Shown in pieces: positions 714 through 13,941 of a DNA stretch of 64,000 nt; position 1 is the first letter of the stretch, and every line of letters starts with the position of its first letter. The notes beneath the pieces were generated by a model, which ran no database searches, was not told where the DNA came from, and saw only the letters and a list, made by a program, of their open reading frames with translations. The stretch covers positions 4,287,279-4,351,278 of the forward strand of contig NZ_CP004078.1 of the NCBI RefSeq assembly GCF_000612505.1. The letters run 5' to 3'. This DNA comes from Paenibacillus sabinae T27 (lineage in GTDB: Bacteria; Bacillota; Bacilli; Paenibacillales; Paenibacillaceae). A program made the position numbers and the translations under genes.

Positions 714-878
714 ACCTAACGTTCATGTATTCCTGAACCCGAGAAGCCTAAGCCAGCTTTAGCAGGCGGGTCCGACGGACTTGGCTTCGCAAGGTTGTCT
801 GCCTGACTCCACTTCTTCGAACTCCCTCGGGCAGACCAAGGAGCCGTCAGGCTCCGCCGCAGGAATACGGTGTTAGAT
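714..878 (-). repeat. attC-like site 1 (cassette 6)
   Basis: This 165 bp site has the cores ACCTAAC (714-720) and GTTAGAT (872-878). The outer arms GTATTCCTG (727-735) and CAGGAATAC (860-868) pair perfectly. Three inner hairpins follow: GAAGCCTAAG with CTTGGCTTC, TTGTCTGCC with GGCAGACCAA, and GGAGCC with GGCTCC. Confidence 0.8.
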
Positions 879-911
879 GATGTGGATACCTTCTTCGAGC
901 TTACTTACAAA

Positions 912-1592
912 TTAAGGTTTGTTGGCTTTCCATATGTATTTATAATCTTTCAATCCAAGTTTTCCGTTTATAATATTCTGTTGAACCCTTAATTCTAATT
1001 CCTTCTTTAGTTCAGGCGTAGTATATTCGGGATTTCCGGGTATTCCTGAAATAAACTTAGCAAATTCAATCTCATCAGGGAAAAAGATAATCGCACTATT
1101 AAATTCTTCAATTTCAATGTTTATATATCCATTACTGTTTAATCTGTTTTTAACTGTTTGCAATGCGCCTGAGTGAATTCCGAATACAGTGCCTCCAGAA
1201 AAAAGTATTCTACTATGATTTAATATAGATGTTGGCCCTCTTCTGTCATAAATTAAATCAAATTGTTCATCATTAAAAGGTAAGTCAGTCTTGGTGCTAG
1301 CGCATACAATTCTTACATTATTCACTTTACTTTCTTCTAAAATTGACTCAGCAATCTTAATCATTTCAACTGAGTTGTCAAATCCTATTATCGATTTAGC
1401 ATGTCTCGACATCTTTAGTGTAAAATCCCCATGTCCGCACCCAGCATCTAAGACTGAATTGAAATTAGGTAACATACCCATTAGTCTTTCTTCAAATATC
1501 TGCTCCGCTGAAATTCCCTCAATGGTAAATACAGCATTGCTTTTATATCCGCCATTTCTTCTAGCGATCATGTCATACCATTCGACTCCCAT
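912..1592 (-). CDS. class I SAM-dependent methyltransferase (cassette 6)
   Basis: This is a 226-residue protein. The SAM-binding motif I is clear at about residues 47-55 (VLDAGCGHGDF) and is followed by the acidic strand end 'GFDNS' and by 'FDLIYDRRGP', where the post-I and motif IV region is expected. The substrate cannot be told; small-molecule or nucleoside-type acceptors are possible. The start follows GGAGG with 8-9 bases spacing. The gene fills the cassette between the attC sites at 1647-1807 and 714-878 and is clearly AT-rich. No promoter of its own is obvious, so it may depend on transcription through the array. Confidence 0.75.
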   Translation of the reverse strand: MGVEWYDMIARRNGGYKSNAVFTIEGISAEQIFEERLMGMLPNFNSVLDAGCGHGDFTLKMSRHAKSIIGFDNSVEMIKIAESILEESKVNNVRIVCASTKTDLPFNDEQFDLIYDRRGPTSILNHSRILFSGGTVFGIHSGALQTVKNRLNSNGYINIEIEEFNSAIIFFPDEIEFAKFISGIPGNPEYTTPELKKELELRVQQNIINGKLGLKDYKYIWKANKP

Positions 1593-1646
1593 GAATTAAC
1601 CTCCGAGAATAAGTGTTTTAGTTTTTATTATTGTTGCAGCCATTTC

Positions 1647-1807
1647 CTCTAACGTTTCCGCATTCACGAACCCGAGAGGCTTAAGTGAGCGCCAGCGAGC
1701 GGGTCGCCAGACTTAGCCTCGCAGGGTTGTCTACCTGCCAATTTCTTCTTTGAAATCTCTTCCGCAGACCCAGGGCGTTAGCCCGCAGCGTGAATGCTGT
1801 GTTATAA
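1647..1807 (-). repeat. attC-like site 2 (cassette 5)
   Basis: This 161 bp site has the cores CTCTAAC (1647-1653) and GTTATAA (1801-1807). The outer arms GCATTCACG and CGTGAATGC pair perfectly. The inner hairpins are GAGGCTTAAGT with ACTTAGCCTC (one bulge), a weaker TGTCTACC with CGCAGACC, and GGGC-GTTA-GCCC. Confidence 0.8.
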
Positions 1808-1929
1808 GATGTCTCCGTCTTCGAAGCATCCCCTTTAAGTTATGTTGTTTGATAAATATGATTCTATTCCATTCGCGAGGTAAAAACAGTCACAGATCTG
1901 GAACCTTACATACTCTATAGTCTTTAGTC

Positions 1930-2056
1930 TTAATGTTTCTTTAATATAGGTATTACTCCGATCGTTATTAGCCTTACTTCTTCTAAAATTTTTGATACAT
2001 CAATTTTCTTTAGTTCATGTTCATCAATTTAAAATAGATGGATAACCAATCTTTTA
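1930..2056 (-). pseudogene. frameshifted remnant in cassette 5
   Basis: Downstream of the small gene at 2054-2215 a protein-like frame can be read without a start codon: KIKDWLSIYFK, then after a one-base shift near 2025-2030 DEHELKKIDVSK and onward to a stop at 1930. The composition looks like real protein and the two pieces join naturally. Both are short and the frameshift is inferred. No family is recognised. The remainder of the cassette (1808-1929) shows nothing. Confidence 0.25.
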
Positions 2057-2215
2057 TTTTTCTAAAATTACCAATGAATATACAGCATTATTACCACCAC
2101 CGCCACCCATCGCACTTTGACTAACTAATTTCCATCCGGTATTTAACAATTCATTTAATTCCTCTAAGTTATTTTTCTTCTCAGTTAAGAAATAGACTAC
2201 TATTGCTTTTTGCAT
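2054..2215 (-). CDS. 53-residue cassette protein, possibly DUF4177-like (cassette 5)
   Basis: This small gene starts at ATG 2215-2213 after GAAGGA. It begins MQKAIVVYFLTEKKNN and continues with 'ELNELLNTGWKLVSQS', a Gly-rich turn (GGGGG), and 'AVYSLVILEK' at the end. The pattern 'LNELLNxGWKxVS ... YSLVILEK' resembles small bacterial proteins such as the DUF4177 type, which have no known role. The alternating hydrophobic strand, helix and strand pattern, together with the ribosome binding site, makes it a credible gene. It is the only intact gene in this cassette. Confidence 0.6.
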   Translation of the reverse strand: MQKAIVVYFLTEKKNNLEELNELLNTGWKLVSQSAMGGGGGNNAVYSLVILEK

Positions 2216-2262
2216 TTTTGCACTTCCTTCTTCTTTATAGTTTTACTCATAACAAGGATTTC

Positions 2263-2420
2263 TTATAACGTTATTGTATTCACGAACCCGAGAGGCTTAA
2301 AGGAGCGTAGCGACTGGGTCGAAGACTTAGCCTCGCAGGAGTTGTCTGCCTGAATCCACTTCTCCGTATTATCTTCAACAGACCAAGGGGGTAGCCCGCA
2401 GCGTGAATGTTGTGTTATAC
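2263..2420 (-). repeat. attC-like site 3 (cassette 4)
   Basis: This 158 bp site has the cores TTATAAC (2263-2269) and GTTATAC (2414-2420). The outer arms are GTATTCACG and CGTGAATGT, with one mismatch or wobble. The inner hairpins are GAGGCTTAA with CTTAGCCTC, TTGTCTGCC against ACAGACCAA, and a short GGGGGTAGCCC. It is the least perfect copy. Confidence 0.75.
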
Positions 2421-2455
2421 GAAGACTTGCTCTTCATCGAAAAACCTCACTAAAC

Positions 2456-2914
2456 CTATTCGAATGTACTTTCGAAAAAGGGCCCTTCAATATCATTTAT
2501 ATAGTTTTCAATAATCTTTCTCATTGGTTGAGGAAGAAGGTTATGTCGGTCCATCTCATTTATGGGTATCCAATAAAATTCTAAATGGCTCTCTTTTGAT
2601 TCTGGATTCTTTCTATAATCTGCGTTTTCTAATTTAGTAATAAAAACATGATTTATCTCTTGATGATATGTTCCTTCATCTTCGTGTTCAGCTTCTACTG
2701 CTCCTATGTACGGCCCGACTTCACTTATTAAACCAAGTTCTTCATTTATCTCTCTATACAAAGAGGTTCTAATACTTTCATGAAACTCAACATGTCCTCC
2801 TGGTAAAAATGTGTTATCCATTCCTATGCAATGGGCAACTAAAAGATGGTTATCGGTTAATATGACTCCTCGAGCCAGCACGTGGTACTTTTGTGGTTGT
2901 TCTTGCTTTATCAT
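2456..2914 (-). CDS. Nudix hydrolase (cassette 4)
   Basis: This is a 152-residue protein with an intact Nudix box at about residues 39-61: GGHVEF-E with seven residues to REINEELGL, which fits Gx5Ex7REUxEExGU. Nudix enzymes hydrolyse nucleoside diphosphates linked to another moiety, using Mg2+ held by the REUxEE helix. The start region (YHVLARGVILTDNHLLVAHC) is the usual first strand pair. The substrate is not predictable. The start follows AGAAGGAG. It is a single-gene cassette between the attC sites at 2967-3128 and 2263-2420 and is AT-rich. Confidence 0.85.
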   Translation of the reverse strand: MIKQEQPQKYHVLARGVILTDNHLLVAHCIGMDNTFLPGGHVEFHESIRTSLYREINEELGLISEVGPYIGAVEAEHEDEGTYHQEINHVFITKLENADYRKNPESKESHLEFYWIPINEMDRHNLLPQPMRKIIENYINDIEGPFFESTFE

Positions 2915-2966
2915 TTTGAAGTCTCCTTCTAAAATTGTTGGTTTTTAATAGGGTTAGCAAGTTTTC

Positions 2967-3128
2967 GTATAACGTTGTTGCATTCCCGAATCCGAAAGGC
3001 TTAAAGGACGAATGCGACTGGGTGGCTTGCCACTTAGCCTTGCAGGGTTGTCGCCTGAATTTGCTTGCCTGTTATAACTTCTGGCGACCAAGGGCCGTAA
3101 GGCCCGCCGCGGGAATGCGGTGTTATCT
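2967..3128 (-). repeat. attC-like site 4 (cassette 3)
   Basis: This 162 bp site has the cores GTATAAC (2967-2973) and GTTATCT (3122-3128). The outer arms GCATTCCCG and CGGGAATGC pair perfectly. The inner hairpins are AAGGCTTAA with CTTAGCCTT, TTGTCGCC with GGCGACCAA, and GGGCCGTAAGGCCC. Confidence 0.8.
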
Positions 3129-3230
3129 GATGGATCGGCCCCACTTCCTCGAATTGAGACAGGACGTCGACCCACATAATCTTTATTGTATTGTAAGTCT
3201 CCAATATTTATTGAGTTTTATATAGTTTTT

Positions 3231-3884
3231 CTATTTTCTTGCTGTCACAAGGATCGCTACTATTCTATGTTTATTTCCATATGTATCCTTAAATTCATAT
3301 ACTTTGTCCTTTAATACAACATCACTAAACTTGCGAAACATCCCACACAACTCTTCGCGTGTCGTATAGTAATGTGGTATATTCTCTTCTCCTGGTCTTC
3401 CTCCTAAAAATGTGTTCGGTGCAATTTCATCGCCAATCCCATAACTTGGATCTTCTGTAGTTACAAAATCCGTTACAACTATTCCATCATTTTTAAGTAT
3501 TCGATATATCTCATTGATTCCTTTTTGAATTTCTTCCCGAACACCATGACCTTGAACCCAAATACATAATACTCCATCAAATATATTATCTTCTAATGTC
3601 ATTGAGTACATATTCTGTATACTATATTCCGCATTAGATTTCTCTGATCGTTCTAATAATTCCTTAGTTATTTCTATTCCTGTTTCTGAGATATCACATG
3701 CATGTACATTGAATCCTTTATCTACCAAATAATACGTATGTCGTCCTGTCCCACATCCTAAATCTAAAATTTTCTTGCATTTATTTTCTAAGAATACGTT
3801 AGCAGCCTCTACAACCGAGTCTAGAACATCAATTTGTACTTTCCCTTGTTCCACATAAATTTTTTCCCAACTGCCGTTATTCAT
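3231..3884 (-). CDS. class I SAM-dependent methyltransferase (cassette 3)
   Basis: This is a 217-residue protein. Motif I is ILDLGCGTGRHT at about residues 39-50, followed by 'VHACDIS' (acidic residue that binds the SAM ribose) and 'FDGVLCIWVQGHGV' as the motif IV region. It reads as a Methyltransf_25/11-type enzyme. The acceptor is unknown. The start follows GGAGACAAGG. It differs clearly from the methyltransferase at 912-1592, so the two are independent acquisitions rather than copies. It is a single-gene AT-rich cassette. Confidence 0.8.
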   Translation of the reverse strand: MNNGSWEKIYVEQGKVQIDVLDSVVEAANVFLENKCKKILDLGCGTGRHTYYLVDKGFNVHACDISETGIEITKELLERSEKSNAEYSIQNMYSMTLEDNIFDGVLCIWVQGHGVREEIQKGINEIYRILKNDGIVVTDFVTTEDPSYGIGDEIAPNTFLGGRPGEENIPHYYTTREELCGMFRKFSDVVLKDKVYEFKDTYGNKHRIVAILVTARK

Positions 3885-4010
3885 TATTTCCTTGTCTCCT
3901 CTCTATTTTGGGAAATGTCGTTACAATGAGGTTTGCGATTTTCTATTTACTTCAAGCAACACGATGTTGCGAATGAATTACCTTCAAGTCATCATTGGGG
4001 CCGATCTTTC

Positions 4011-4171
4011 AGATAACGTTATTGTATTCACGACGCCTTACCGACTTAAGCCCCATAGGGTGGCCGCGACGCGGTTAGTCGGTGCAGGTTTGTCTGCTGA
4101 ATATGCTTCCCCGAATTGCCTCGGGCAGACCGAGGCTCCGTAAGAGCCGAAGCGGGAATACGGTGTTATGT
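4011..4171 (-). repeat. attC-like site 5 (cassette 2)
   Basis: This 161 bp site has the cores AGATAAC (4011-4017) and GTTATGT (4165-4171). The outer arms are GTATTCACG and CGGGAATAC (one mismatch). The inner hairpins are ACCGACTTAA with TTAGTCGGT, TGTCTGC with GGCAGACC, and GGCTC-CGTAA-GAGCC. The first inner hairpin has a different sequence from sites 1-4 but still pairs. Confidence 0.8.
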
Positions 4172-4219
4172 GATGCCCCTCACTTCTTCGAGTAAGCTTC
4201 CAAGTCGCCTTTAATCTTG

Positions 4220-4573
4220 TCAGTCTACTTCTGTCTTGATCTTAATTTGTATATAGTTTTTTGTTATTTGTTGTGTTGAGACTGTAGTCTCGTAATTGTC
4301 TTTAATGAATTTGAATCCTGATCCTATTTGTTCTTCGTATTTCCAGCCTTTGCCTTTCATATAATCCTTTAGATTTTCATATCCGTTGCCCTTTATATTC
4401 TTTGCCATGAATGTTGCATAATTTTGATTTTCATCTGTCTTTATCATGTCTTTATCGGTTGTTTGTAGTTTAATTATTCCCCAGAGGTTACTTGCTCCAT
4501 ATCTACTAACTGGTAAAAATATTAACACCATAACGATCAAAGTTGATATGAAAAGTAATTTCCCTTGCTTCAA
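4220..4573 (-). CDS. small membrane-anchored protein of unknown function (cassette 2)
   Basis: This is a 117-residue protein with one N-terminal membrane segment (about residues 6-22, LLFISTLIVMVLIFLPV) and a soluble, probably extracellular, Lys-rich domain (ENLKDYMKGKGWKYEEQIGSG). The start is TTG at 4573, preceded by a weak GTAGGTGA site. No family is recognised. The second half, with alternating strands ending KNYIQIKIKTEVD, looks like a small alpha/beta domain. It is a single-gene AT-rich cassette. Confidence 0.6.
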   Translation of the reverse strand: MKQGKLLFISTLIVMVLIFLPVSRYGASNLWGIIKLQTTDKDMIKTDENQNYATFMAKNIKGNGYENLKDYMKGKGWKYEEQIGSGFKFIKDNYETTVSTQQITKNYIQIKIKTEVD

Positions 4574-4616
4574 TGTTTCACCTACTCACTGTTTTCATAT
4601 GTCTTTAAGGGGTTTC

Positions 4617-4797
4617 ACATAACGTTTCCGTGTTCACGACGTCCATTCACCCTAAGCTGCCAGCGTCGTGCGTCGAGCACGATCTCGGCCGGCCGCGATG
4701 CGGTTGGGTGAATGGATGTGTCCCGGCAACTACATCTTCGACTTATATGCCGGGACCGAGGCGGCTTGTCCGCCGAAGCGTGAACACATTGTTATCT
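4617..4797 (-). repeat. attC-like site 6 (cassette 1)
   Basis: At 181 bp this is the longest site. The cores are ACATAAC (4617-4623) and GTTATCT (4791-4797). The outer arms CGTGTTCACG and CGTGAACAC pair perfectly. The inner hairpins are CCATTCACCCTAA with TTGGGTGAATGG, GTCCCGGCA with TGCCGGGAC, and GGCGG-CTTGT-CCGCC. All stems differ in sequence from the other sites while keeping the same layout. Confidence 0.8.
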
Positions 4798-4850
4798 GAT
4801 GCCAGCAACTTCTAAGAGTTACCCTTAAAATCGCTTTATTCATGCTTTAT

Positions 4851-5120
4851 TTATTTGTTTATTGGCGACTTTTCCTTTTCCCATTCTGTAGGCCCTTCAT
4901 TAGAAGGTATGAATCTCCTCCAATAGTCACCGGTTTGTTGATCAAATATTATGATATTGTTTTCGTTTACATTTATCATTTGATATCGATTGCCATTTTG
5001 GTCTTTACTGTCGTTCTGATTTGATTCTCCTTTAAAAGATATACCTAATAGAAAGCCAAATATTCCAGAAATGAGAACTAGCGTCAAAATAGAGACTGCG
5101 ATAATTGTCTTGTTTTTCAT
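4851..5120 (-). CDS. small membrane-anchored protein (cassette 1, first in the array)
   Basis: The preferred start is ATG 5120-5118 after GAGAGGAA, giving 89 residues: a Lys-rich start, one membrane segment (about residues 5-27), then a hydrophilic domain with 'IIIFDQQTGDYWRRF' and 'NEGPTEWEKEKSP'. Such short anchored proteins with a 'TGxYW' strand occur in bacilli without known role. The same frame is open upstream to an ATG at 5192 that lies in the attI-like site and has its own AAAGGG site, so a longer form of 113 residues fused to attI sequence is possible. Confidence 0.6.
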   Translation of the reverse strand: MKNKTIIAVSILTLVLISGIFGFLLGISFKGESNQNDSKDQNGNRYQMINVNENNIIIFDQQTGDYWRRFIPSNEGPTEWEKEKSPINK

Positions 5121-5165
5121 TATTCCTCTCCCTCGATTCACTAGAAAATCCATCTTGCTGGTTTC

Positions 5166-5233
5166 AGATAACGTCTTATCTCTGAACTTCATGTATCCCT
5201 TTAATCCGGGTTATCTCTGTACTTCGTGAATCC
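5166..5233 (-). other. attI-like insertion site with two direct repeats
   Basis: The core GTTATCT (minus strand, 5172-5166) marks the junction with the first cassette. Beside it lie two 23 bp direct repeats at 5176-5198 and 5211-5233 (20 of 23 identical), both starting TTATCTCTG on the plus strand. There is no long branched fold as in the attC sites. Direct repeats next to a single simple site are what attI1 shows as extra integrase binding sites. I infer attI from position and from the cassette-end rule. Confidence 0.6.
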
Positions 5234-5281
5234 AGCATTGGATTCTTTTTTCATGTACCACAAGACATCTTCTCCCAACAT
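5201..5281 (-). CDS. 26-codon leader frame running into attI
   Basis: An ATG at 5281-5279 is preceded by GGGGGAGGTGA, a near-perfect ribosome binding site. The frame (MLGEDVLWYMKKESNAGFTK and six more residues) ends in TAA at 5203-5201, inside the attI-like region. Right after the stop come AAAGGG and an ATG (5192) that opens in frame into cassette 1. Class 1 integrons carry a comparable short frame (ORF11) in attI1 that raises translation of the first cassette. The same role here is inference. Confidence 0.45.
   Translation of the reverse strand: MLGEDVLWYMKKESNAGFTKYRDNPD
5228..5251 (+). terminator. terminator-like hairpin beside attI
   Basis: GAATCCA and TGGATTC pair around a 4-base loop and are followed by six T on the plus strand. 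It would stop transcription moving rightward, from the array into the recombinase's antisense strand. Confidence 0.45.
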
Positions 5282-5303
5282 TCACCTCCCCCCCTATTCG
5301 TGC

Positions 5304-6422
5304 CTACATCCGATCTAGAGGACTCTGAATCCGCCGGATATCCTTTACACTTACATGGGTATACCGCTCTGTCGTACGAGAACTCTGATGGCCGAGCAGT
5401 TCCTGGATATAGCGCAGATCAATTCCATTTTCAAGCAGGTGGGTCGCAAAAGAATGCCGGAGCGCGTGGATGCCAACCTGTTTCATCACACCGGAGGCGG
5501 AGAGTGCCTTTTCGAATACTTTTTGCACGGAGCGTTCAGTCAGATGTCGGCCGGGAGTTTGTCCGGGGAATAACCAAGGTTCGGGTTTCTCCTGATCAAC
5601 ATATTTGCGGACCAGTTGGTAAGCGGAATCGGACAATAGAGTGATCCGGTCTTTTCTTCCCTTCCCTTGACGCACACGCAGCACTTGACGGGCATGATCA
5701 CAATCCTCAATCCGAAGCCGAACCACCTCGCTGACCCGCAGGCCGGACGAATAGGTCAGATATAGAATAGCTTGATGCTTCAGGTTGTCCACGGCCTTTA
5801 AAATGATCATCACCTCATCAAGTGATAGCACATTAGGAAGCTTATTCTCCTTTTTGGGCCGAATATATGAAGCTGTCTCTTTCAGGTTAAGAACATGCTT
5901 GGAATAGAATTTCAGTGCGCTAATCGCCTGGTTCACGTAGGCATGGGAGTACGCCCGCTTGAGCAAAGATAGAGCATACTGTTGAACACAAGATTCACCG
6001 GTTTGAGACTCTCGCTCCCTATGGTAAGCACAGAATCTCTTTACATGGGCACTATACGCCCGAATGGTCTTGCCACTGTATCCGCGGACAGTTAGTGCAT
6101 CCCGAAATCTATGTTCCATCTCTTCATTCCATAGATAAGAGCTCCGCTTGGCGGCAGCCACCGCCTGAACTTGTTTGTCCAGCCATTCTTGAATAAAAGG
6201 GCTATCCTCCACCAGACGCTGATCCACCTTCACCTCATCGCCGAAGCAAGCATTTAGCAGTTGTTCGACTTTAGCGATAGTGTAAGGGATCGTCCAAATG
6301 CCTTCGTCAGGTACCCACTTCCTACCGGGGATCGATTTTATCTTCAGAATGTCCTCTTTGCCGAATCTGTTGATTTGGATCCCGATCGTTCGCTCATCGC
6401 GTATGCCCAGTCGGATTTCCAT
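5304..6422 (-). CDS. tyrosine recombinase of the cassette array
   Basis: This 372-residue protein follows a strong site (GGAGGGAG). Residues 1-75 form an extra N-terminal domain with 'GRKWVPDEGIWTIP'. A SAM-like core-binding domain covers about 95-185 and the catalytic domain about 195-368. The active-site set is complete: R229 (SSGLRVSEV), the Lys of GKGRKDR (253-259), H319 and R322 (HALRHS), H345 (LLGH) and nucleophile Y354 (TERYTHV). The last residues (IQSPLDRM) resemble the end of IntI proteins (RSPLD). The stretch between the GKGRKDR hairpin and HALRHS (about 60 residues) shows no room for the IntI-specific insertion. It is therefore closer to XerC/XerD-like enzymes with an integron-like tail. 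Its position next to attI makes it the likely cassette integrase. Confidence 0.8.
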   Translation of the reverse strand: MEIRLGIRDERTIGIQINRFGKEDILKIKSIPGRKWVPDEGIWTIPYTIAKVEQLLNACFGDEVKVDQRLVEDSPFIQEWLDKQVQAVAAAKRSSYLWNEEMEHRFRDALTVRGYSGKTIRAYSAHVKRFCAYHRERESQTGESCVQQYALSLLKRAYSHAYVNQAISALKFYSKHVLNLKETASYIRPKKENKLPNVLSLDEVMIILKAVDNLKHQAILYLTYSSGLRVSEVVRLRIEDCDHARQVLRVRQGKGRKDRITLLSDSAYQLVRKYVDQEKPEPWLFPGQTPGRHLTERSVQKVFEKALSASGVMKQVGIHALRHSFATHLLENGIDLRYIQELLGHQSSRTTERYTHVSVKDIRRIQSPLDRM

Positions 6423-6462: not shown

Positions 6463-6569
6463 ATACAAGAAGAAACGGCTGACGACGTCTTTCAAGACGC
6501 AAGTGCGTTTCTCGTAGAAATACAAGGTCTGTTATAAGCGTGAAACTTATAAATTCTTGTATTTTAAAA
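6463..6569. repeat. structured dispersed repeat, copy 1
   Basis: The shared order is AAGAAGAAACG, a GACG-type hairpin, GCGTTTCTCGTAGAAATACAAGG, then TTATAAGCGTGAAACTTATAA, then CTTGTATTTT. The GAAACG and CGTTTC arms pair, and ATACAAG pairs with CTTGTAT. The outer ATACAAGAA (6463-6471) is also complementary to TTCTTGTAT (6554-6562), so two folds compete. A terminator-like hairpin follows directly. Confidence 0.7.
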
Positions 6570-7015: not shown

Positions 7016-7116
7016 CAAGAAGAAACGCCTGACGGCGTCTTTCAAGACGAAAGTGCGTTTCTCGTAGACATACAAGGTCTTTTATAAGCGTGAAACTTAT
7101 AAAAGACCTTGTATTT
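7016..7116. repeat. structured dispersed repeat, copy 2
   Basis: Same family as 6463-6569. The second hairpin is perfect here: ATACAAGGTCTTTTATAAG pairs over 19 bp with its complement around a CGTGAAA loop. Copy 2 ends at the A-run that is the T-tract of the minus-strand terminator at 7117-7154. Confidence 0.7.
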
Positions 7117-10959: not shown

Positions 10960-11826
10960 TTAGAACGCCGGGATGATGGAGCCTTGGTACTTGTCTTCAA
11001 TAAATTTCTTCGCTTCCGGGGAAGTCAGCGCGGCTGCCAGCTTCTTGATGGCGTCTTTCTCCTTGTCGTCCGGACGGACTACAAGCAGGTTCGCATATGG
11101 AGAATCTCCGCTCTCGATGAACAGGGCGTCCTTCGTCGGAACGAGTCCCGCTTCCAGCGCGTAGTTGGCGTTGATCAGCGCGAGGTCGACTTCATCCAGC
11201 TGACGCGGCAGGTTAGCGGCTTCCAGCTCGATGATTTTGAGATTCTTTTTATTTTCCGTGATATCCGATTTGGTAGACGCAATATTGTTAGGGTCCTTCA
11301 GCGTGATCAGACCGTTCTTCGCCAGCAGAATCAGCGCGCGGCCGCCGTTGGTGGCATCGTTAGGGATGGCCACTTTCGCGCCGTCTTTCAGTTCGTCGAT
11401 CGATTTGATTTTTTTGGAGTACGCGCCAAAAGGTTCAACATGGACAGCGGCGACGGAAGTCAAATTCCAGCCGTTCTTTTGATTCTGGTCGTCCAGGTAA
11501 GGCTTGTGCTGGAAGAAGTTCGCGTCCAGTTGGCCTTCGGCCAGCTGCACGTTCGGCTGAACGTAATCAGTGAATTCCTTGATTTCAAGCTTGATGCCCT
11601 GCGCTTCAAGCTGCGGTGCGATAGCCTTCAAAATTTCTGCGTGCGGAATCGGAGAAGCTCCGACAACTAGTGTGACAGGTTCTGCGCTTGGAGCAGCCGA
11701 AGCTCCGGCAGCAGGCGCACTGGAGGCGGCAACGTTGGAGGCTTTGTTTCCTCCATTGTCAGCGCCGCAGGCAGCCAGCACCATAATCAGCGTCAGGCTG
11801 AACAAGGTCAACAGCATTTTTTTCAT
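10960..11826 (-). CDS. metQ: methionine ABC transporter, substrate-binding lipoprotein
   Basis: This 288-residue lipoprotein has a signal peptide with lipobox LAAC (Cys at residue 20), then an Ala/Ser-rich linker and the NlpA/MetQ fold: 'VVGASPIPHAEIL', 'KEFTDYVQPN', 'DANFFQHKPYLDDQN', 'VAIPNDATNGGRAL' and 'ALINANYALEAGL'. It captures methionine outside the membrane and delivers it to MetI. It is the last gene of metN-metI-metQ, 152 bp after metI, and ends at a strong terminator. The SAM-I riboswitch ahead of metN controls the set. Confidence 0.92.
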   Translation of the reverse strand: MKKMLLTLFSLTLIMVLAACGADNGGNKASNVAASSAPAAGASAAPSAEPVTLVVGASPIPHAEILKAIAPQLEAQGIKLEIKEFTDYVQPNVQLAEGQLDANFFQHKPYLDDQNQKNGWNLTSVAAVHVEPFGAYSKKIKSIDELKDGAKVAIPNDATNGGRALILLAKNGLITLKDPNNIASTKSDITENKKNLKIIELEAANLPRQLDEVDLALINANYALEAGLVPTKDALFIESGDSPYANLLVVRPDDKEKDAIKKLAAALTSPEAKKFIEDKYQGSIIPAF

Positions 11827-11978
11827 TTGATAAATCCCCCTCTGAAAGTGTATGTGTGTTAACGGAGGCTTGTAAGGTTCCCCAACCGCCAGCTCCGCCG
11901 GTTTCGGCGAAAGCCTCTGCTTCCATCGGAAGCGGAAGGCGCCCTCGCCTCAATAAGGTATTTTTATATAAATAGGCC

Positions 11979-12650
11979 TTATTTTCGTGTGAAATGTCTT
12001 ACCAGCCGGTCGCCCGCCATCTGCAGGAACTGCACCAGCACAACAAGCAGAATAATCGAGACAATCATGACTTCCTTCTCATAACGCTGATAGCCGTAGC
12101 GGATCGCCAAATCCCCAAGTCCCCCGCCGCCGACCATGCCTGACATGGCTGTGTACGACACCAGCGTAACAACGGTAATCGTAATCCCGGCAAGCAGGCC
12201 CGGACGGGCTTCCGGCAGCAGCACGCGCATCACGATCTGGGTAGTCGAAGCTCCCATCCCCTGCGCCGCTTCAATCACGCCACGGTCCACCTCACGCAGC
12301 GACGTTTCCACCAGACGGGCGAAGAACGGCGCGGCTCCGATGACCAGCGGCGGTATGGTTCCCAGAACCCCGATGGACGTACCGACCACGGCCCGGCTGA
12401 ACGGGATCAGCGCAATGACCAGAATAATAAACGGCACCGAGCGCAGAATATTAACAATGAAGGAAATAACCGCGTATAAGCCTTTTACAAAAGGAAGCTG
12501 TGATCTCCCCCATAAATATAACACAATTCCGAGCGGTAAACCAAGGATTATTGTAAAAATCGCGGAACTGCCCAGCATTTTTAAGGTATCCACCGTACCG
12601 GTAATCATCTCATCCCAGTCAACGGCTGAAAAATCAAGACCGAATATCAT
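11979..12650 (-). CDS. metI: methionine ABC transporter permease
   Basis: This 223-residue membrane protein has about five membrane segments and the permease contact loop 'EAAQGMGASTTQIVMRVLLPEARPGL' (EAA motif). It forms the channel for methionine uptake with MetN. Its ATG overlaps the metN stop by four bases (ATGA), so the two are translationally coupled. Confidence 0.92.
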   Translation of the reverse strand: MIFGLDFSAVDWDEMITGTVDTLKMLGSSAIFTIILGLPLGIVLYLWGRSQLPFVKGLYAVISFIVNILRSVPFIILVIALIPFSRAVVGTSIGVLGTIPPLVIGAAPFFARLVETSLREVDRGVIEAAQGMGASTTQIVMRVLLPEARPGLLAGITITVVTLVSYTAMSGMVGGGGLGDLAIRYGYQRYEKEVMIVSIILLVVLVQFLQMAGDRLVRHFTRK

Positions 12651-13663
12651 GACAGCACCTCCACATCAAGTCCCTGCGCGGTCAGCTCGGAGATTGTTCT
12701 GCCGATGGCTGTGGCGTCTCCTTCGAAGCGGACAACGAGCTGGCCGTACGGAATATCTTTAATGGTGGAGATGGTTCCTTGCAGGATAGCGAAGTTCACT
12801 CCGGTACCGCTGGCTACGCGCGACAGCGTCGATTCGTACGTCTTTTCCCCAAGGAACGTAATCTTGACCGCCGTCGTCCCGTCGGGATGCGGAGCCTGCA
12901 GCGCCGCAAGGAGCGGACTGTCGTCATGGGCTTCGCTTTGGATGAACTCCTTCGTCACCCCATGCCTTGGCTTCAGGAACACATCGGCCACCCGCCCTTG
13001 CTCGACGATGCCCCCGCCGTGAATCACGGCCACCCGGTCGCAAATGCTCTGAATGACATGCATTTCATGCGTAATCAGCACAATCGTCAGATTGAACTGC
13101 TTGTTGATGTGAAGCAGCAGTCTTAGGATCGAATCGGTCGTCTGCGGATCAAGCGCCGATGTGGCCTCGTCGCACAGCAGCACGTCCGGATCGCTCGCCA
13201 GCGCCCGGGCGATGCCTACCCGCTGCTTCTGCCCGCCCGACAGCTGAGCAGGGTATTTGCTCCGGTGTTCGGTGAGGCCCACAAGCGCGAGCAGCTCATT
13301 CACCTTCCGGTCGACCTCGGCCTTTGGTGTGTGCACCAGCCGGAGCGGAAAGGCGATATTGTCATACACCGTCGCCGACGAGAGCAGGTTGAAATGCTGA
13401 TAAATCATGCCGATCTTCCGCCGGCGCTCCTGCAGCTGGTTTTTGCCCAGCCGGGTCAGCTCGGTGCCGTCGACCCACACTTCGCCTTTCGTCGGACGCT
13501 CCAGCAGATTAATGCAGCGGATCAGGGTGCTTTTGCCCGCGCCGGAGTGGCCGATTACCCCGAAGATTTCCCCTTTTTCAATATGAAGATTCACGCCCGA
13601 GAGCGCTGTGGCGGCGGTGCCGCCTTTTCCGTACACTTTGGTCAAGCCTTTTAACTCTATCAC
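12647..13663 (-). CDS. metN: methionine ABC transporter ATP-binding protein
   Basis: This 338-residue ATPase has Walker A GHSGAGKST (about 38-46), a Q-loop in 'MIYQHFNLL', signature LSGGQKQRV, Walker B 'VLLCDEATSALD' and the switch His in 'LITHEM'. The C-terminal 90 residues are the NIL domain, which binds methionine and lets MetN shut the importer when methionine is plentiful. It is the first gene of metNIQ, 45 bp after the riboswitch terminator. Confidence 0.93.
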   Translation of the reverse strand: MIELKGLTKVYGKGGTAATALSGVNLHIEKGEIFGVIGHSGAGKSTLIRCINLLERPTKGEVWVDGTELTRLGKNQLQERRRKIGMIYQHFNLLSSATVYDNIAFPLRLVHTPKAEVDRKVNELLALVGLTEHRSKYPAQLSGGQKQRVGIARALASDPDVLLCDEATSALDPQTTDSILRLLLHINKQFNLTIVLITHEMHVIQSICDRVAVIHGGGIVEQGRVADVFLKPRHGVTKEFIQSEAHDDSPLLAALQAPHPDGTTAVKITFLGEKTYESTLSRVASGTGVNFAILQGTISTIKDIPYGQLVVRFEGDATAIGRTISELTAQGLDVEVLS

Positions 13664-13708: not shown

Positions 13709-13917
13709 CCAAAAAGCCCCCCGACAATCCGTGCAGACCGCGGGAGGCTCTCTTAACTGTAAAAGACCATGCCTTCTCATCTGCACAAAGCCGTGAACAT
13801 GCCACGCCATGTAGGAATTAGCACCATGACACTGATGCTTGGGGACGTATGTATACACCGCGCATCAATCGGTTGCCGGGCTTCATCGGGCCTGTCCCTC
13901 CGCCACTCTCGATAAGA
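13709..13917 (-). promoter_or_regulatory. SAM-I riboswitch (S-box) with terminator
   Basis: On the minus strand the leader reads TCTTATCGAGAG, then GGCGGAGGGACAGGCCC and GATGAAGCCCGGCAACC, the conserved S-box core, and ends with a terminator at 13709-13751 (GAGCCTCCCGCGG arm, CGGGGGGCTTTTT). SAM binding is expected to favour the terminator and switch metNIQ off when SAM is high. Confidence 0.95.
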
Positions 13918-13941
13918 TTGGATATGAAATTTTCATGCCTT

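Follow-up and report, generated by a model that had tools for sequence, protein, structure and literature searches.

A cassette array of probable integron-like organisation in Paenibacillus sabinae, with a tyrosine recombinase lacking the IntI insert

A stretch of 64,000 nucleotides from the Paenibacillus sabinae T27 genome (contig NZ_CP004078.1, positions 4,287,279 to 4,351,278, here called the window) was analysed, and the array of six gene cassettes that it carries behind a tyrosine recombinase gene is, very probably, an integron-like system whose recombinase is not an integron integrase (IntI). An earlier note on this DNA had read the array as an integron from the complementarity of the cassette ends, placing it at 714 to 5303, and its coordinates proved right, with the sites at 714-4797 and the first core at 5172. 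The window lies on a single 5.27 Mb contig, and the integrase and the window cassettes share one reading direction. The features are as follows, with the bit scores of the attC-like sites taken from a covariance model built from these six window sites.

5304..6422, minus strand: integrase gene, a tyrosine recombinase of 372 aa, transcribed toward the array
6195..6422, minus strand: N-terminal domain of the integrase (residues 1-76), predicted HARP / UvsW / XPB damage-recognition-like fold
5172..5230, minus strand: attI-like site, in which the 15-base direct repeat GAAGTWCAGAGATAA occurs twice (5211-5225 and 5176-5190) ahead of the first-core junction
4624..5172, minus strand: cassette 1, attC1 and a small protein whose N-terminus is hydrophobic (likely coding sequence 4851-5120)
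4617..4797, minus strand: attC-like site 1, 181 bases, 122.0 bits
4018..4623, minus strand: cassette 2, attC2 and a 117-aa protein (4220-4573)
4011..4171, minus strand: attC-like site 2, 139.3 bits
2974..4017, minus strand: cassette 3, attC3 and an S-adenosylmethionine (SAM)-dependent methyltransferase (3231-3884)
2967..3128, minus strand: attC-like site 3, 154.1 bits
2270..2973, minus strand: cassette 4, attC4 and a NUDIX hydrolase (2456-2914)
2263..2420, minus strand: attC-like site 4, 154.5 bits
1654..2269, minus strand: cassette 5, attC5 and a 53-aa protein (2054-2215) that matches DUF4177 below its cut-off
1647..1807, minus strand: attC-like site 5, 152.9 bits
721..1653, minus strand: cassette 6, attC6 and a SAM-dependent methyltransferase (912-1592)
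714..878, minus strand: attC-like site 6, the last of the array, 168.5 bits, with the next core GTTAGGT at 714-720

The six window sites are 158 to 181 bases long, and the cassette cores on the minus strand have the G of GTT at 5172, 4623, 4017, 2973, 2269 and 1653. The attI-like DNA fills the interval between the first core (5172) and the stop of the integrase gene (5304); the attI-like site is conserved in a related genome (G071), where homology at the same locus stops at 5168.

The evidence that carries the integron-like reading is the pairing of the cassette ends. The start of each window cassette is reverse-complementary to the R″ end of its own site at 7, 7, 7, 7, 7 and 6 of 7 bases, so that the five exact cores and one of 6/7 reported before were recovered as stated, and the R′ end within the same site, which is the start of the next cassette, matches at just 6, 6, 5, 6, 5 and 6 of 7; the complementarity therefore belongs to the cassette and not to the site. 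That chance agreement is unlikely was borne out by permutation of the six ends, in which 2 of 720 orders equal the true order at 7 bases, because one core is common to two cassettes, and only the true order (1/720) reaches its own match level at 12 and at 14 bases. This is the pattern expected when one site is split across the two ends of an inserted circle.

The same grammar was observed in 26 genomes over 397 cassettes, obtained by keeping 397 of 405 pairs of adjacent sites (those 60-2500 bases apart). They were drawn from a set of 443 sites made up of 174 typed sites out of 176 (two cut off at locus ends were excluded), 119 further sites and the best 150 of 161, some of the added stretches having been chosen for their many sites in an earlier covariance-model search. 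Own ends match in 0.89, 0.80 and 0.79 of cases at bases 5-7, against 0.53, 0.34 and 0.38 when the comparison is with other cassettes in the locus, and in 0.89 at both bases 8 and 9. Bases 10 and 11, with matches of 0.30 and 0.04, form a fixed mismatch of two bases, after which bases 12-18 match their own end again (0.86, 0.85, 0.83, 0.79, 0.80, 0.70 and 0.54, against 0.28-0.47 for the starts of other cassettes of the same locus); past base 18 the own-end match is not above controls. The end pairing is thus a 9-base core, a constant 2-base mismatch and a 7-base cassette-specific box; the "two or more" further complementary bases of the earlier note do extend beyond the core, and were understated, since pairing runs to base 18 with a mismatch at 10-11. 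In 291 of 396 cassettes (35 expected), no other start within the locus pairs as well as the cassette's own. In the cores GTTA is followed by variable bases, and the three commonest among the 174 typed sites, GTTATAT (26), GTTATGT (21) and GTTATCT (15), do not fit the consensus RYYYAAC...GTTRRRY. Core and partner also show paired changes between copies of one cassette (for example L042_2 against L042_6). The longest open reading frame (ORF) runs in the sense direction in 345 of the 397 cassettes and antisense in 25, with 27 having none of 50 aa.

The sites are branched palindromes of about 160 bases, in which an outer stem encloses several branches, with length quartiles of 148-164 bases over the 443 sites. 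Among the best 150 of 176 covariance-aligned sites, 90.6% of the cells pair, changes on both sides were detected in 33 of 39 pairs, and covariation scores 0.421, compared with 0.152 for shuffled and at most 0.089 for slid controls, a score favoured by an alignment that was itself fitted to the structure. Joining start and site of one cassette, the arrangement found in a circle, stabilises the computed fold relative to the array form for 351 of 396 cassettes (median gain 7.0 kcal/mol), and for 356 of 396 the fold is also more stable than one made with the start of another cassette, as follows from the own-end complementarity. These folding models suggest that the site would be stronger in a circle than in the array.

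Movement of cassettes between genomes was also traced. Similarity over 80% of the length links 49 pairs of cassettes, of which 30 reach an identity of 80% or more, 20 of these 30 joining two genomes. None of the 30 pairs has the same neighbours on both sides, and in 23 both neighbours are known and differ. Near-identical cassettes were found in different species. The steps at the cores were analysed in 19 of 21 pairs at ≥88% identity, two being excluded (one because it begins 8-22 bases within the body, the other because of a 70-base length difference); the 19 pairs are not independent, as one cassette family contributes six and another three. At the left core, near-identity begins from the core onward with about background identity before it, and at the right core identity drops to background past the core. 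The strain comparison that the earlier note had called for gave the expected outcome, the same cassette lying at different array positions with breaks at the cores. Window cassette 1 recurs in G071 with 96.4% identity over 562 bases, 6.3 kb deeper in the array of the same locus, where the integrase and the DNA past it align at 80-91%. At the left end of this cassette, attI sequence in one genome gives way at GTTA to the attC of another cassette in the other, and at its right end the two differ past GTTA and also at some bases just ahead of it. Two departures from this pattern were observed, namely that base 5 past the left core agrees in only 12 of 19 pairs (the core itself varies) and that identity ahead of the right core is 0.47-1.00, below what is expected if the whole attC always moves unchanged. 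The alignments support an exchange of cassettes as units, the breaks falling at GTTA. In another genome (G097), the adjacent cassettes 16 and 17 of locus L152 are 99.4% identical, which is likely a recent duplication.

These comparisons bear on the reading that the ~160-base sites are a scattered structured repeat, either a mobile repeat or an RNA, whose cassette look is incidental. The sites are many and strongly structured, as such a repeat would be; however, the opposite ends of each interval pair in a cassette-specific manner, identity steps at the core, gene and site appear together at new positions, and no Rfam family matched the sites at the gathering score in a search of the window. 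We consider this reading highly improbable.

The window protein was aligned with 21 relatives, and R229, H319, R322, H345 and Y354, which we take to be its catalytic residues, are invariant. Its best NCBIfam family is NF040815 (225.3 bits, above the cut-off of 220), and the integron integrase family TIGR02249 comes second with 203 bits, below its cut-off of 265, against 449 bits for a control IntI. Nothing in 100 genomes of the genus passed the TIGR02249 cut-off, nor did anything in 14 control genomes, so the sensitivity of this search rests on the control IntI. The gap between aligned blocks is 17 residues in the window integrase and 59 in Vibrio cholerae IntI4 (2a3v), and box I lies 92-93 residues from box II in the genus rows that could be read by pattern, compared with 133 in five IntI rows; for some rows the pattern gave no value or misread (239 in L055/L036). 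The IntI-specific additional domain around patch III is thus not found in the window integrase. Pfam HARP (PF07443) gave no match in its residues 1-100. The closest named relatives of the window integrase are from Paenibacillus. In the trees, the genus enzymes form one clade with a row from a Firmicutes metagenome-assembled genome (MAG) and a row from another family of the order (97/89, and 92/80 in a second tree), and the IntI rows form a separate clade (100/100, with four rows in the first tree and seven in the second); 28 rows, too short or with failed extraction, were left out of the first tree, and three IntI among these were included in the second. One candidate IntI (L133) was rejected, since it has no insert and clusters with Xer, and it was left out of the second tree. 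By its sequence, the window enzyme belongs with the Xer-like tyrosine recombinases and does not have the IntI insert.

This is where the reading of an ordinary IntI integron of known class, acquired by a Firmicute, has to be weighed. The organisation and crossover logic are alike, integron integrase is the second-best family, and an approximately unbiased (AU) test did not reject a single clade of the window family and IntI (p-AU 0.33). The available text of PMC9668308 gives the additional domain as the defining character of IntI, needed for recombination, and that of PMC8138268 reports the insert as not fully conserved in an integron-like subgroup, which also speaks for this reading, so the window integrase family may already belong there. 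Against it stand the short gaps between blocks and boxes, the family score far under the cut-off and the control, the lack of any IntI above cut-off in the 100 genus genomes, and the sole IntI array that was scored, a control from a Calditrichia MAG (L124, 4 cassettes), whose core pairs over 8-10 bases with bases 12-18 matching at background (7/28). The outer box is absent from this IntI array, which is a single control. We therefore regard the ordinary class as unlikely, and of the integron first proposed, the cassettes with split attC and the GTTA crossover are strongly supported, whereas membership of the ordinary IntI class is not supported for an enzyme without the insert, at 203 of 265 bits, outside the IntI clade and with an extra box in its sites.

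The covariance-model search of related genomes that had been proposed, made with the model of the six window sites, revealed sites of this kind as common in the group. Of 100 genus genomes, 73 carry them (no more than 29 were scored in any one genome), as do 82 of 118 family genomes, with 17 of 19 genera represented. Beyond the family, single matches came from 3 of 119 genomes taken from the phylum (E 1e-8 to 5e-5), and these may be either distant sites or chance. Phage records gave no match to the query of site 4, and plasmid records gave one partial match, from Cohnella. The window genome has 22 sites, comprising the six in the window, 11 at C1:4254200-4266527 (L147) and five at C1:2268339-2271515 (L148); these two clusters lie away from the only close integrase match of the genome and resemble a CALIN (cluster of attC sites lacking integron-integrases). 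One-strand arrays were observed in 19 loci with typed sites beside integrases of relatives, and one genome (G051) holds 45 cassettes in its examined stretches.

All 25 integrase-positive genomes of the genus (E 1e-60) have sites, as do 48 of the 75 integrase-negative ones (Fisher p 1.5e-4). The 48 genomes would fit arrays that are moved by another recombinase, such as host XerC/XerD, with the neighbouring gene as a passenger, and the window genome does encode further tyrosine recombinases. The association across the 25 positive genomes, the attI-like site that opens the array directly behind the integrase gene, and some related integrases of Bacteroidota that likewise lie upstream of arrays with the same grammar argue against it, and we find such an arrangement quite unlikely. 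Several integrases of relatives are broken, with a probable internal loss in G071 and in-frame stops in G079, G010, G007, G075 and G065 (the loci being L011/L035, L014, L016, L020, L026 and L032). With truncations or stops in a number of integrases, many of the arrays may be frozen.

Related integrases also occur in Bacteroidota, some with downstream repeat arrays. Model R1 found a site (E up to 1) in only one of 80 loci with related integrases, that of Paenibacillus sp. NFR01, and the Bacteroidota arrays were therefore sought by self-comparison, which gave at least three repeat segments in 12 of the 80 loci, two of them IntI loci. Bacteroidota loci with a related integrase and downstream repeats include L065, L071, L087, L079 and L059, and the first three, with clear repeats, were scored. 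In the Rufibacter array, the 12 cassettes match their own end at 8.5 of 9 bases and others at 5.2, with 10 of 12 being unique best; in Flavobacterium enshiense (6 cassettes) and Algibacter (5), the values are 8.0 and 5.9, with 5 of 11 unique best. These three loci have the 9-base core and the 2-base mismatch with a shorter outer match, and this comparison of arrays suggests that the end grammar belongs to this integrase family. On NF040815, one of four Bacteroidota relatives is above the cut-off (227) and three are below it (196.6-218.4). Near full-length relatives of the integrase with 37-41% identity are present on plasmids of Chryseobacterium and Rufibacter (NZ_CP041688.1, NZ_CP094530.1 and NZ_CP012644.1). 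In the MAG HGW-Firmicutes-8 (L090:510-4693), repeats with GTTANNNGAAAT starts adjoin a related integrase in the opposite orientation; a crude search found no own-end pairing there.

The two ends of each cassette are the two halves of one site, and the integrase is predicted to cut and rejoin cassettes at GTTA cores, likely on folded single-stranded DNA. Excised cassettes would be circles, in which the ends reunite into the full 18-base outer stem, and the reunited site, modelled as about 7 kcal/mol more stable than the arrayed one, would favour insertion of circles over excision. The N-terminal domain, of predicted HARP/UvsW-like fold, may read branched or mismatched DNA and so replace the IntI-specific helix. 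On balance, we lean towards the broader view that this is a separate class of integron, usual in Paenibacillaceae and shared with Bacteroidota, in which a Xer-type integrase carries a HARP-like domain for reading branched DNA in place of the IntI helix, and a cassette-specific stem of two boxes, complete only in the excised circle, would let the site tell circle from array and drive insertion; the class may have arisen independently of IntI.

In the literature, integrons, which are known for the spread of resistance genes, are treated as nearly absent from Firmicutes. The available part of PMC9024848 reports one complete integron there (Limnochorda pilosa) and a few CALINs, some of which may be sites of the present kind; the word Paenibacillus is absent from its main text. 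The accessible text of PMC8618304 names Firmicutes and Bacteroidota among the integron-bearing phyla. Among the titles and abstract openings listed from the open-licence literature, none describes an integron in Paenibacillus or a fusion of HARP and recombinase. The cassette-exchange system is common in a large family of Firmicutes, and it opens a pool of mobile genes that IntI searches would miss. Because the insert called essential in the available parts of PMC8138268 and PMC9668308 is absent, the system would be well suited to testing which features of an integrase are required to recombine folded attC, and if it is independent of IntI, it would be a case of convergent evolution of the integron.

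Other features were noted in the window. A near-repeat of about 90 bases is present by eye in two copies upstream of the integrase (about 6470-6560 and 7018-7108). A SAM riboswitch (RF00162, 65.9 bits) was detected at window 13774-13918 on the minus strand, and the ORFs at 10960-13663 behind it resemble, by eye, a methionine-type ATP-binding cassette (ABC) transporter.

Among known systems, the HARP, UvsW N-terminal and XPB domains of superfamily 2 (SF2) helicases are the ones that the N-terminal domain is predicted to resemble, and it differs from them in being fused to a recombinase without a helicase domain and in giving no Pfam match. Like XerA, XerC and XerD (NF040815), the enzyme has core-binding and catalytic domains without the IntI insert and scores just over their cut-off; unlike them, it has about 100 extra N-terminal residues and adjoins a cassette array and an attI-like site. 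With the Firmicute CALINs and the L. pilosa integron, as given in the available part of PMC9024848, the system shares cassette arrays in Firmicutes, and it differs in the associated integrase type and in sites present in 73 of 100 genus genomes. It differs from IntI integrons in the missing insert, in sites mostly of 148-164 bases against 57-141 in the accessible text of PMC3053210, in GTTANNN cores, many of which do not fit the GTTRRRY consensus given there, in the extra mismatch and 7-base outer box, and in an integrase that is co-directional with the window array. In common with the sedentary chromosomal IntI integrons, it has cassettes that mostly carry a single sense gene, with a palindromic site at the 3′ end, a core that begins with GTT and has an AAC partner, breaks at the core, large chromosomal arrays, an attI-like site adjoining a tyrosine-recombinase gene, and attC halves split to the cassette ends.

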